Notes under the pieces: model-generated
Databases searched by the model: none
What the model was told of the DNA's origin: nothing
The model's input: the letters and a program-made list of their open reading frames with translations, nothing else
Shown here: positions 2,313-7,655 of the stretch, in pieces
Position numbering within the stretch: position 1 is the stretch's first letter
Layout of the letters: the number at the start of each line of letters is the position of its first letter
Translations under genes and position numbers: made by a program
Source: Tolypothrix sp. PCC 7910
Lineage (GTDB): Bacteria > Cyanobacteriota > Cyanobacteriia > Cyanobacteriales > Nostocaceae
DNA length: 64,000 bases
Assembly (NCBI RefSeq): GCF_011769525.1
Contig: NZ_CP050440.1
Coordinates: 8,108,001-8,172,000, forward strand
Direction of reading: 5' to 3'

Positions 2313-4264
2313 ATGGAATTGCTAAATAATTTTTTTTTCCTCAGCAATATATCCCTCATGGGCATTGCTATCTTTGGCAACCACAATTAGTTGGATTGCA
2401 TATAGTCTCTGATTTGCTTATTGGGCTGGCTTATTATTCGATTCCCATAATTTTGGTTTATTTTGTCCACAAGCGAGAAGATTTGCCTTTTAATTGGATT
2501 TTTTTATTGTTTAGCACATTCATTATTGCTTGCGGCACAACCCACATCATGGAAGTGTGGACGCTTTGGCATCCTATCTATTGGGTATCCGGCTTGATTA
2601 AAGCTATCACTGCTATTGTTTCTGTATACACAGCCATAGAATTGGTACCATTAGTTCCAAAAGCGTTGGCTTTACCTAGCCCTGCCAAACTAGAAGCTGC
2701 AAATGCTCAATTAGCGAAAGAAATTGCTGAACGCAAACGTACTGAAGCGGTATTAAGAGAAAGTGAACAACGTTGGCAATTAGCTTTACGTGGCAACAAT
2801 GATGGGATTTGGGATTGGAATTTGACAACGAACGAAGTATTCTTCTCACCTCGCTGGAAAGAAATGCTTGGTTATCAAGAAGATGAGATTTCTCATAATT
2901 TAGATGAAATTATCAACCGCATACATCCAAATGATTTTGGCAGGGTGAAAAAAGCAGTTAAAAGTCATTTTGATAAATTAACACCGTTTTACATGAATGA
3001 GTATCGTGTATTATGCAAAGATGGTAGCTACAAATGGATTTTAGACCGTGGTCAAGCGTTGTGGGATGAGAATGGTAAAGTAGTGCGAATGGTAGGTTCG
3101 CAAACTGACATTACTGAGCGTAAAAAAGCAGAAGAAAATCTTAATCAGCTACTCGACAGCCTAGAAAATATAGTTGCAGAACGTACAGCAGAGTTAACCA
3201 GAATTAACGCCTCATTACAAGTAGAAATTACAGAACGCCAGCGCATAGAGGAAGCCTTAAGAGAAAGCGAACAGCAATTTCGGGCAACATTTCAACAAGC
3301 GGCTGTTGGTATTGCTCATGTAGGAATAGATGGACGATGGTTATTAGTTAATCAGAGATTTTGTGATATTGTTGGTTATACATTTGAAGAACTGCAATTA
3401 TTAACTTTTCAAGATATTACTTACCCAGATGATTTAGAAGCTGACCTCAACTATGTTGAGCAGATATTAGCTGGTGATATTCACACCTACACTTTAGAAA
3501 AGCGCTATTTTTGCAAAAACAATTCTCTCGTCTGGATTAATCTGACTGTGTCTTTAGTCCGGGATAGCTTTGGTAAGCCCAAGTATTTTATTTCTGTCAT
3601 TGAAGATATTAGCGATCGCCAGCGTTCTCAAGAACAGATTCGAGCATCATTACGAGAAAAAGAAGTTCTATTAAAAGAAATTTACCATCGAGTTAAAAAT
3701 AATTTTCAGGTGATTTCTAGCCTATTAAACTTGCAATCAGAATATATTAAAGATCAGGATGATATGCAGATATTTCAACAAAGCCAGCAGCGGATAGCAT
3801 CTATGGCTTTGGTTCATGAAAAAATGTATCAATCAGGAGATTTGTCCAGAATTAATTTTCGTGAATATGTTCAGGAATTAGTGGCAAGTTTATATACATC
3901 ATACAAAGTATATGATGGTGCGCTTACTTTACACATTAATATTGATGAGCATATTTTACTTGGTTTAGATACAGCAATCCCCTGTGGGTTAATTATTCAT
4001 GAACTTGTTTCTAATTCGTTAAAATATGCTTTCCCTGAAGCTAGAAATGGTGAAATAAATATTGCTATCAGTGAAATGGCAAATAATAGAATCGCCCTAA
4101 CCGTTAGTGATAACGGTATTGGTTTACCTCCAAACTTCAATTTTACAGAGACAGCATCATTGGGTTGGCAGTTAGTAGAAGCTTTAGCCTCTCAGCTTAC
4201 AGGAGACATCACAATTAAGAGCGATATCGGGGTAGAGTTTTTAATCATATTTTCTCTAGCGTAA
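2313..4264 (+). CDS. Ethylene-receptor-like sensor histidine kinase (frame broken at a 9-T tract near the start)
   Basis: The protein is a membrane sensor kinase. Numbered from the in-frame TTG at 2396, it has an ETR1-like ethylene-binding domain of three membrane helices (about 1-95), with D6 in ISD-like context and the putative Cu(I) ligands C46 and H50 in ACGTTH. Two PAS domains follow (about 120-250 and 285-415), then a HisKA_2-type phosphoacceptor (H431 in [10 protein letters not shown]) and a HATPase domain with VSDNGIGLP. The frame is open upstream to 2330 and encodes the conserved segment [19 protein letters not shown], but it has no ATG. An ATG at 2313 (MELLNN) joins this frame only if the run of nine T at 2330-2338 had ten. 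The true start is therefore probably 2313, with slippage, a sequencing error or a mutation. The response regulator gene begins 18 bp downstream. Ligand (ethylene, light or other) is not deducible from sequence. Confidence 0.85.
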
Positions 4265-4282
4265 TATATATAGGTTTATTAA

Positions 4283-5824
4283 ATGACTAACGCCAACATT
4301 TTAATAGTAGAAGATGAAGCAATTGTTGCTAAAGATTTACGTAATCGCCTGACAAGATTTGGTTACACCGTTCCAGCCATAGCTTCTTCAGGACAAGAAG
4401 CTATTAATAAAGCACTCGAGCTATCTCCAGATTTGGTACTAATGGATATCAAATTAAAAGGTCAAATGGATGGGGTACAAGCGGCTGACGAAATTCATAA
4501 GCATTTAGATATACCAATTATTTATCTTACCGCTTATGCAGACGATAATACTTTAGAAAGGGCAAAAGTTACAGATCCATTTGGCTATTTACTCAAACCT
4601 TTTAAAGAAAGAGAGCTACAAACTAATATTGAAATAGCTTTAACTAAGCATCAGCTGGAAAGGCAATTAAAAAATAGCCAAAAATGGTTATCAACATTGC
4701 TAAAAAGTATCACCGATGGAGTGATTGCTAGTGATATGCAAGAAATAGTAAATTTTATGAATCCTGTAGCAGAAACCTTGACAGGCTGGCAAGAATCAGA
4801 AGCTATGGGCAGAAATTCATCAGAAATATTAAATATTGCTCATGGAGAAACTCGTCAGCCCATAGAAAATCCGATCAAAACAGTTCTCCAAGATGGTAGA
4901 GTTGCTAAATTACCAGAAAATACTATTTTAATAGGAAAAAATGGTCAAGAAATCCCCATAGATGATAGTACTGCGCTTATTAAAGATGAGAAAAATAATA
5001 TTATGGGTGCAGTGTTGGTATTTCGGGATATCACCGAGCTGAAAAAAGCTATAGAAATTCGTAAAAAGCAAGCAGAACAAGCGGATCTAGTAGCGCAATT
5101 GCAAGCAGTTAATCAAATAAAAAATGATTTTTTAAATTTAGTTACCCACGAATTACGCTCACCTCTGAGTAATATGAAAGGCATAATTCAATTACTAGAG
5201 GTTTATCCCCTATCTGAGGAATTTCAGCGTTATCTCGAGATTATAAAAGCAGAGTGCGATCGCGAGATGGAATTGATCAATGATTTGTTAGATTTACAAC
5301 GGCTCGAAACTTCATCGTATTTGCCTCTCGCCCCTGATGTTTTAGTATTAGAGCAGTGGTTACCTTTATTGATCGAGCCGTTTCAAGCCCGTGTTCAGGA
5401 ACACCAGCAAACTCTACAGTTAAATCTGCCCCCAAATCAAGTAACAGTAATATCAGACCGTACCAGCTTGGAACGTATTTTAATAGAATTGCTCAATAAT
5501 GCCTGTAAATACACACCTGCTGGTGGTGAAATTATCATAAATCTGCCTCAAAACACTTCCTTAACAGCCTCACGAACAATTATTACTGTCAGCAATACAG
5601 TAGAAATTCCTGCTTCCGAGTTACCGCGTATTTTTGAAAAATTTTACCGCATCCCTAATGCTGATCTCTGGAATCAAGGCGGTACAGGCTTAGGACTCGC
5701 CATAGTGCAGAAGTTAGTTGAACAACTGCAAGGCAGCATTCAAGTAGAAAGCGGCAATGGAAGAACAAGATTTATCCTCTCTCTTACTGATTTAGCACCT
5801 ACTAGCACAACACAGCAAAAGTAG
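4283..5824 (+). CDS. Response regulator-PAS-histidine kinase hybrid
   Basis: This 513-aa cytoplasmic protein begins with a receiver domain: acidic pocket E10-D11, phosphoacceptor D55 in LVLMDI, and K105 in LLKPF. A PAS domain (about 135-255), a HisKA domain (H289 in VTHELRSPL) and a HATPase domain follow; the last has NNACKYTPAGG and the G-box TGLGLAIV. With a receiver in front of a complete kinase it can take phosphate from the upstream ethylene-receptor-like kinase and pass a signal through its own kinase. The 18-bp spacing and same strand support an operon. No DNA-binding output domain is present, so the next step must be another regulator encoded elsewhere. Confidence 0.92.
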   Translation: MTNANILIVEDEAIVAKDLRNRLTRFGYTVPAIASSGQEAINKALELSPDLVLMDIKLKGQMDGVQAADEIHKHLDIPIIYLTAYADDNTLERAKVTDPFGYLLKPFKERELQTNIEIALTKHQLERQLKNSQKWLSTLLKSITDGVIASDMQEIVNFMNPVAETLTGWQESEAMGRNSSEILNIAHGETRQPIENPIKTVLQDGRVAKLPENTILIGKNGQEIPIDDSTALIKDEKNNIMGAVLVFRDITELKKAIEIRKKQAEQADLVAQLQAVNQIKNDFLNLVTHELRSPLSNMKGIIQLLEVYPLSEEFQRYLEIIKAECDREMELINDLLDLQRLETSSYLPLAPDVLVLEQWLPLLIEPFQARVQEHQQTLQLNLPPNQVTVISDRTSLERILIELLNNACKYTPAGGEIIINLPQNTSLTASRTIITVSNTVEIPASELPRIFEKFYRIPNADLWNQGGTGLGLAIVQKLVEQLQGSIQVESGNGRTRFILSLTDLAPTSTTQQK

Positions 5825-5951
5825 AGAAGGGAAGCCAAAGATAAATAGAAAATATGTAATTAATTTTGTCTAGGTACAGAAAAAATTAATTAGGTGTATG
5901 ACGTTTTTACATATTTTGAAGCTACCTACTAAATAATATAATATCTGTCAA

Positions 5952-6052
5952 CCCCAAATAGAAAGATGATATATCAGCCCAGTATGTCTAAATTAGCTAT
6001 ATATGGTAAACACCTGGTATATCTGGAGGCTTGGTTTTAACCGAGCCTTTTT
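5952..6052 (+). ncRNA. Candidate small RNA unit 1 of a tandem pair (with promoter-like region)
   Basis: The unit has ordered blocks: CCCCAA (5952), GATGAT (5965), GTCTAAATTA (5986), then GAGGCTTGG (6026), a stem formed by GGCTTGGT/ACCGAGCC and five T. The same blocks at almost the same spacing recur at 6168-6270. TAAATT in the third block could be a -10 element, giving an RNA of about 55 nt ending at 6052. No reading frame fits. Alternatively the first hairpin only terminates the kinase operon that ends at 5824. Confidence 0.5.
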
Positions 6053-6167
6053 CATAGCTTTTCTTATTGATTCATATAGGTAAATAACTATAAAAGTATG
6101 GTTTTTAACCAATTAAGTTTATCTGGTAACTATATCCACAAGCAGTTTTTGGCATATTTGGATACAT

Positions 6168-6270
6168 CCCCAAGGATGATGATCTGTAATGAGACTAGGT
6201 CTAAATTAATTTAGTACGTTGTTAAGCACAGCAATGATCGAGGTTTGGCTCGCGACCAAACCTTTTTTTT
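6168..6270 (+). ncRNA. Candidate small RNA unit 2 of a tandem pair (with promoter-like region)
   Basis: This is the second copy of the ordered blocks CCCCAA (6168), GATGAT (6178), GTCTAAATTA (6199) and GAGGTTTGG (6240). It ends in a strong terminator with stem AGGTTTGG/CCAAACCT (6241-6263) and eight T (6263-6270). The predicted transcript starts near 6209 and is about 60 nt. The stem differs from unit 1 by paired changes that keep base pairing, which argues for a functional RNA hairpin. No known family was recognised. Confidence 0.55.
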
Positions 6271-6506
6271 CAAAACTTACAAGTTGATTTTTAATTGCTC
6301 TTCATTAGATATTATGCTAAATCTCATTCGCAATTATCTTACTGGTGCTGTGCCTTACCCATCTGTCTTTTTTATCTTTTGACCTTTTACAGCCTTAGTC
6401 CAAAATATGCAATTCTAGAGTTTTAGTCTTAATTAACGGCGACTAAATCGTAGAGGGCGCTGCTTTAATGCAGAGATATACCAATCTAATTTGATTTTTG
6501 ATGATT

Positions 6507-7655
6507 AGACACGTCCGGAATATGAATTGGGTACAAAAAAATGGTAGAAAGTAAAATTGACCCTCTACCAAAATTTAATTAAATGATTAGTATATTTGAT
6601 TATATACAAAAGTATCCACGAAGAGCAAAGCAACTTTTGGGGATTAGTTATGACCAATTTACTGACCTTGTAAACTATGCTAAAAACAGTCATGAAGAAG
6701 AACAACTCAAATTGGAACAGAAGAAAGTTAGAATACATCGTCGTGGAGGTGGACGCAAAGAATTATTATCCATCCCAGAACAAGTATGTTTGTGCTTGTT
6801 TTATCTGAGACAAATACCCACATTTGAAGTTTTAGGAATAATGTTTGGTATATCAAAAACTTTATCTAATGATACTTTTCATTACTGGAGAAAAATATTA
6901 CGTAAGATTCTCCCTTCTAGTTTAATAGAGCAAGTAGAAAATAAAGAAGGAGATTTGCTCATTATACAAGAAATATTAACGAATTTTAAGTTGCTAGTTG
7001 ATAGCGTAGAACAGCCTATAGATAGACCATCTGACAACGAAGAACAGAAAAAGTTCTTTTCGGGAAAGAAAAAACAGCATACTATAAAAAACCAGATAGT
7101 TTCCTTGCCAGAGGGAAAAGATATTATTGATGTTACAGTAGGCTCTCCAGGGCCAACAGCAGACATAAAATTATTTAGAGAGCAACAAACAAAATTTGAT
7201 GAAAAACAAGAATTTACGGGAGATAAAGCGTATCAAGGTGGGAATAATATTACTACCCCTCATAAGAAGAAAAGAAAACAACAATTAAATGAACAACAAA
7301 AAGAAGAAAATAAAGCTCTATCAAGTAAGCGTATATTTGTTGAGCATTTAATACGTATTGTAAAAATTTTCCAAGTGGCATCACAAAGATTTAGATTAAA
7401 TGCTGATGTTTATAATGAAATAGTTTTGTTAGTTTGTGGTCTAGTAAGACTGCGAATTGGCACTTTCGTATTACCGAATAGCGCCATAAATTAGTATCAA
7501 TTAAAAATTGTGTTTGCGTTAGGCAAGATTATGTATTTTTCTGCTCTAAACTATCAGTAACTATATCAAACACTTATTGTTCCATTGCAACAGAATCTGC
7601 AAGGACTGGTCTCAAAGCCTTGTAAATATAGGCTTGCGAGTTTTCGGACGGGTCT
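6507..7655 (+). mobile_element. IS5-family (ISL2-like) insertion sequence, copy 1
   Basis: The element is 1149 bp. Its ends are imperfect inverted repeats: the left begins AGACACGTCCGGAA, and the right, read inward, begins AGACCCGTCCGAAA. It is flanked by a 3-bp ATT direct repeat (6504-6506 and 7656-7658), as expected for ISL2-type elements, which duplicate ANT. It carries one transposase gene. It appears identical to the copy at 30771-31919, so movement was recent. It sits in noncoding DNA here. Confidence 0.93.
6583..7494 (+). CDS. IS5-family DDE transposase, copy 1
   Basis: The 303-aa transposase has an N-terminal helix-turn-helix-like region (IPTFEVLGIMFGISKTLSNDTFHYW) that binds the element's ends and a C-terminal DDE nuclease domain of the DDE_Tnp_4 type. 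The acidic triad is visible in the contexts LLVDSVEQPIDRP, FTGDKAYQG and IFVEHLIRIVKIF. The gene fills the element apart from about 75 bp on the left and 160 bp on the right. It reads as intact and its translation equals that of the second copy, so this element is probably still active. Its codons are strongly AT-biased. Confidence 0.93.
   Translation: MISIFDYIQKYPRRAKQLLGISYDQFTDLVNYAKNSHEEEQLKLEQKKVRIHRRGGGRKELLSIPEQVCLCLFYLRQIPTFEVLGIMFGISKTLSNDTFHYWRKILRKILPSSLIEQVENKEGDLLIIQEILTNFKLLVDSVEQPIDRPSDNEEQKKFFSGKKKQHTIKNQIVSLPEGKDIIDVTVGSPGPTADIKLFREQQTKFDEKQEFTGDKAYQGGNNITTPHKKKRKQQLNEQQKEENKALSSKRIFVEHLIRIVKIFQVASQRFRLNADVYNEIVLLVCGLVRLRIGTFVLPNSAIN

Follow-up and report, generated by a model that had tools for sequence, protein, structure and literature searches.

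Yfr2 is a cyanobacterial sRNA family that occurs in several copies. The closest known counterpart of the genes analysed here is very probably an sRNA of Nostoc PCC 7120, where, according to PMC4734099, the 51-nt sRNA 4547237r starts 319 nt from the start of NsiR8, a HetR-dependent RNA of ~170 nt. That paper proves 4547237r by primer extension as well as Northern blot, finds it conserved in 12 of the 27 heterocystous genomes compared and reports its induction in stationary phase and under prolonged nitrogen starvation; it also refers to a Table S3 of 327 predicted sRNAs of PCC 7120, a list that may hold further members of the family described below. Sibling sRNAs with partly different targets and one promoter per copy are described for NsiR1 in PMC9045159. 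No description of an ordered array of the kind presented here was found in a search of mostly open-access literature. We analysed a window of 64,000 nucleotides from Tolypothrix sp. PCC 7910, and we read two neighbouring units within it, at a probability of about 0.75, as part of a co-regulated cluster of trans-acting sibling sRNAs with one promoter logic and different seeds.

The initial annotation had noticed two tandem paralogous sRNA-like units, each with its own terminator, that share ordered sequence blocks. All of the named blocks were found where they had been placed. CCCCAA starts at 5952 in the first unit (unit B) and at 6168 in the second (unit A), GATGAT at 5965 and 6178 (with an extra copy at 6175), GTCTAAATTA at 5986 and 6199, and the GAGGYTTGG block occurs as GAGGCTTGG at 6026 and as GAGGTTTGG at 6240. 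The start-to-start spacings of 21/21 and 40/41 bp were borne out, and the offset of 213 bp between the units is true for GTCTAAATTA (for CCCCAA it is 216 bp). Local alignment of the two units scored 25, a value reached by 0 of 1000 dinucleotide shuffles (best 18), and in both units a hairpin precedes a T run, with z-scores of -3.8 for unit B and -2.95 for unit A in a fold of 62 nt. The short transcripts predicted to end near 6052 and 6270 agree with these terminator folds. A consensus terminator scan detected unit A's terminator alone of the two, and a sigma-70 consensus scan of the window detected neither unit's promoter. One part of the original description has to be corrected: CCCCAA, GATGAT and GTCTAAATTA, described there as blocks of the sRNA-like units, are promoter elements, the RNA holding only the GAGGYTTGG block, which forms part of the terminator stem. 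Judged on sequence, both window units are almost certainly complete sRNA genes with a promoter, a predicted RNA of 53-58 nt and an intrinsic terminator (Table 1).

Table 1 Features of the window and further family members in the Tolypothrix genome and one relative (G110); simple coordinates are window positions, except for types D and E, which are given as genome positions.
Feature	Position	Strand	Basis
ETR1_N (ethylene-receptor-like) PAS histidine kinase, HisKA_2	2396..4264	+	Pfam; neighbour survey
Receiver-PAS-histidine kinase	4283..5824	+	Pfam; neighbour survey
Unit B promoter	5926..5999 (-74 to -1)	+	344-unit promoter profile, alignment, promoter-only model match
sRNA type B, predicted, ~53 nt	6000..6052	+	Start 5 nt past -10 box; subtype alignment
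Intrinsic terminator hairpin and T run, unit B	6025..6052	+	Fold; family helix with two-sided changes
Unit A promoter	6139..6212	+	344-unit promoter profile, alignment, promoter-only model match
sRNA type A, predicted, ~58 nt	6213..6270	+	Homologue search, subtype alignment
Intrinsic terminator, unit A	6240..6270	+	Fold, consensus terminator scan, subtype alignment
DDE transposase, downstream of array	6583..7494	+	Pfam
Type C, own genome	G000:C1:6967126-6967237 (L002:1442-1553)	-	Covariance model match
Type D, own genome	8073231	-	Covariance model match
Type E, own genome	1973308	+	Covariance model match
Type H, own genome	G000:C1:2552476-2552586 (L268/L269 pair)	-	Match inspected by eye
Type H counterpart, G110	G110:C1:1522021-1522131 (L268/L269 pair)	-	Match inspected by eye

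After the window pair, a third copy of the unit was found elsewhere in the Tolypothrix genome. BLAST with unit A gave matches at E<=0.1, some of them weak, in 22 of 58 relatives' genomes (own genome included); its closest counterparts in other genera were 80-87% identical, a few over partial length, and a profile run over the same loci revealed additional copies alongside. A simple gapped pattern was discarded as a search tool, being swamped by chance in the own genome (189 matches vs 318 for the reversed control). We then relied on a full-unit covariance model of 113 positions and 51 units that covers promoter and RNA. The first unit set left out L029, L052 and L056 as duplicate places; for model R1, seven of 58 units were dropped, six as near-identical and one G unit as divergent, and the identical window unit took the place of one row. 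This search, which the initial annotation had suggested, found homologues in which the block order is kept. At E<=0.01, 136 of the 217 genomes in the host's family had 1-11 model matches each and 81 had none; an order-wide sample gave matches at E<=0.001 in 57 of 388 genomes, all 57 inside the host's family. The comparison shows a predicted sRNA family found in one family of heterocyst-group cyanobacteria, Nostocaceae going by the named loci. The own genome holds six matches at E<=0.01, units B and A of the window among them. The type H unit is solitary and combines the family promoter and terminator with a new 5' domain, GAGTCTTTCACTTCTnTTGACA, common to the own genome and G110.

An exact search for the type A core in named genomes yielded 66 named loci, of which 63 hold at least two units and none is a mixed-strand array; Nostoc PCC 7120 is absent among these 66. 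Adjacent typed pairs number 197, and every one agrees with the order F-G-B-A-C-E (three units untyped), under typing rules that were drawn up after the sequences had been inspected. Type B is sometimes doubled within an array, and arrays reach seven units. The pair first noticed is real and, going by the relatives, part of a longer ordered array; the earlier observation is confirmed and is larger than first reported. In the own genome type C sits 1.15 Mb from the window on the opposite strand, and in G003, of the same genus, it lies directly after A, which points to an inversion that has one breakpoint between A and C. At one further locus PsrR1 (RF02701, L113:3290-3369) lies ~670 bp downstream of an array running from F to C. 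It is most improbable that the units are mobile repeats, MITE or REP-like, that happen to carry a terminator: there are several copies per genome and a transposase starts 313 bp past unit A, but genomes have just 1-11 matches, the 66 named loci keep one strand and one order, and the types are conserved across genera.

The types are set apart by a 5' stretch of ~22 nt that is almost invariant within types A, B, C, D and F and looser in E and G; in the window it reads TATATGGTAAACACCTGGTATAT in type B and AGTACGTTGTTAAGCACAGCAAT in type A. Since loci L088-L153 were fetched by the type A core, the presence and invariance of type A there is by construction. Outside the exact-core fetch the 22-nt core was kept in 44 of 44 distinct units, under a typing rule that itself demands part of the core and that excluded a near-A unit in L086 with one change. 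In type C, GGTGTAGTAAATGCTTGGTATA was kept in 48 of 49 units. With type A left out, the identity of 5' domains was 0.93 for units of one type at different loci (1341 pairs) and 0.58 for different types at one locus (67 pairs), and that of the promoters was 0.70 and 0.66 in these two comparisons; with type A included (in a sample) the corresponding values were 0.93 and 0.51 for the 5' domain and 0.70 and 0.65 for the promoter. Because the 5' domains are kept per type while the promoters drift, the types look like old paralogues, each of them apparently under separate constraint.

Each predicted RNA was taken to begin 5 nt past the -10 box, the distance at which the RF02596 model begins in type D, which gave median lengths of 48-59 nt across the types. 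The terminator helix of the family is 98.2% paired and carries two-sided changes in 33 of 455 cells, neither value being reached by any of 500 shuffles; 25 of these 33 changes stem from one base pair that differs by type.

The units had been said to match no recognised family. Rfam gave zero matches in the window at the gathering cut-off (35.7 bits for RF02596), and here the statement holds; a permissive scan of the paralogue loci nevertheless identified the own type D as RF02596 (cyano_het_sRNA), with RF02593 (NsiR8) upstream, so that the window units are paralogues of an Rfam family and score under its cut-off. Type D reached 72.5-86.2 bits against RF02596 in 11 of 11 D loci, five of which have NsiR8 upstream. 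Window unit A scored 24.4, own type C 28.1 and own type E 34.7 bits, all under the cut-off, and window unit B had no match at E<=1. Across nine array loci the cut-off was passed by four of 47 units (three A and one E, 36.8-42.4 bits), the present Rfam model missing the other 43 and hence most array members. Type D and the other types fit one alignment and one model and have the same promoter. From its length, its Rfam name and its synteny with NsiR8, type D is very probably 4547237r.

As had been noted, the pair in the window lies behind a sensor-kinase operon. Of the 42 named loci that include 1.8 kb or more of upstream DNA, only five (L115, L121, L129, L141 and L146) have orthologues of both kinases beside the array, at 72-97% identity except for one N-terminal piece in L115 (48%); the second kinase also lies, in part, by the arrays L113 and L151, where less upstream DNA is available. 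The widest flanking protein cluster, a mixed kinase cluster, reaches 15 of 67 loci. With the kinases beside a minority of arrays and no widespread flanking cluster, array order is kept while the neighbours change; the kinase operon was rejected as a conserved partner, and the kinase genes are outside the conserved system. These counts bear equally on a cis-acting origin, in which the units would act as attenuators or leader RNAs for the genes that follow, or be products of the kinase operon's 3' UTR. The short distance between operon and array (~120 bp in the window, 123-329 bp in some relatives) would suit this, but neither the kinases nor any other flanking protein cluster accompanies the arrays widely and each unit brings a promoter-like block and a terminator of its own, which makes such an origin improbable. 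Independent sRNA genes remain our reading of the units. In Synechocystis, ethylene sensing is reportedly linked with the sRNA CsiR1, so that the neighbourhood with an ETR1_N kinase may merit attention. On the other side of the array, a hairpin with a T run lies on the minus strand at 6542-6570 and may mark where the transposase element (6583-7494) ends. The hexamer TCCGGA, presumably the DIF motif hexamer of HetR-dependent promoters, occurs at 6514-6519, downstream of the array and beside the transposase, where it may be due to chance.

In 344 units aligned on the -10 box (four of 348 distinct units lacked this anchor and were left out) the promoter has strong TAAATTA at -11 to -5 and AGGAAGATGA at -40 to -31; further upstream it resembles ATTTGnACACATCC between -57 and -44 and shows TATCA between -73 and -69. 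Unit B follows this design with an upstream element, AGAAAGATGA at -40 to -31 and the -10 box TAAATT at 5989-5994, its TATCAG-like box being poorly kept; the promoter-only model matched it at G000:C1:8113927-8113995. Unit A carries AGGATGATGA at -40 to -31, the -10 box TAAATT at 6202-6207 and an upstream element with the palindrome CATCCCCAAGGATG (6167-6180), centred near -40. For the promoter-only model, 68 of the 86 picked rows were combined with the two window rows; it was run on ten genomes, six of which were compared with the full-unit matches. In these six, all 34 hits at E<1e-3 overlapped a full-unit match (G000 6, G060 5, G110 8, G187 5, G230 4, G235 6), an overlap that is not wholly independent because the full-unit model includes the promoter. 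All six hits in the own genome were inspected by eye, and a hairpin terminator follows every one. By this comparison, at E<1e-3, the full-length promoter coincides only with the predicted genes of the sRNA family in the six genomes.

The promoter also bears on whether the units are simply further copies of NsiR1, whose tandem sRNA copies lie upstream of hetF and depend on HetR. NsiR1 is alike in its length of ~60 nt, its tandem arrangement, its individual promoters and its organism group, as described in PMC9045159. However, its promoters carry DIF1, and the hexamer of this motif (TCCGGA) occurs between -66 and -1 in 0 of 344 unit promoters; its seven central copies are identical, whereas the present units are differing types in fixed order; and the window array is adjoined by kinases and a transposase, not by hetF. 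We consider further NsiR1 copies a very remote explanation.

In the co-regulated cluster that we propose, one regulator would turn on all copies together through the common promoter design, possibly in stationary phase or when nitrogen starvation is prolonged, the conditions to which the type D member is reported to respond. The 5' domain of each type would then pair with different mRNAs, and with different seeds a single signal could reach several targets. Trans-pairing of the 5' domains with mRNAs is, in our view, somewhat favoured. The wider picture of a regulator-controlled, RNA-only regulon, in which six ordered types plus D and H elsewhere convert a starvation or late-growth signal into several post-transcriptional outputs, is put forward tentatively, at a little under even odds.

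A 16-nt antisense pattern for type A, allowing up to two mismatches, gave 28 hits besides the A genes in 12 genomes vs 27 for the reversed control. Just one of the 28 is exact: in G110, 22 nt inside a sugar ABC permease gene (L252:1394-2386, minus strand) are perfectly complementary to type A, at the protein motif IIAVLNNG. This gene occurs in eight of the 15 genomes searched, and the seven orthologues keep IIAVLNNG with two to five mismatches of 22; the site is therefore not counted as a conserved target and the permease was rejected as one, the likeliest explanation for the G110 complement being chance aided by the protein motif. For type A, this search revealed no long antisense site that is conserved, which would agree with RNAs that bind a protein, as a sponge for an RNA-binding regulator, or one another instead of mRNAs. 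The invariant domain of 22 nt exceeds the usual seed length and could serve protein binding, and among the 28 pairings of type consensus 5' domains A-F alone passes a z-score of -3 (predicted duplex -16.7 kcal/mol, z -3.05, the lowest of the 28). Strongly differing 5' domains would, however, be needless for one common ligand, and one outlier among 28 tests is weak; both variants are unlikely, and pairing with mRNAs is retained as the preferred mode of action.

Already known was one distant member of the family (type D, RF02596); what the present comparison adds is a large ordered cluster of predicted paralogues, so that an obscure single sRNA becomes a cluster in a major group of multicellular cyanobacteria that fix nitrogen. 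The cluster offers ready hypotheses of a common regulator and type-specific targets, and the promoter motif could be used to fish the regulator. RF02596 shares promoter design, terminator and similar length with the array types, but it has been described as a single sRNA, whereas types A, B, C, E, F and G carry other 5' domains. NsiR8 (RF02593) differs in being a separate RNA, absent from the window at gathering level. Yfr2, like the present family, is a multi-copy cyanobacterial sRNA family; it had no Rfam match in the window or the scanned loci. Beside NsiR1, they would give these bacteria a second example of sibling sRNAs in arrays, the present family being meant. By sequence the two systems are alike as tandem ~60-nt sRNAs with individual promoters; NsiR1 has DIF1/HetR promoters and hetF downstream, whereas the window family has another promoter and a fixed series of types.
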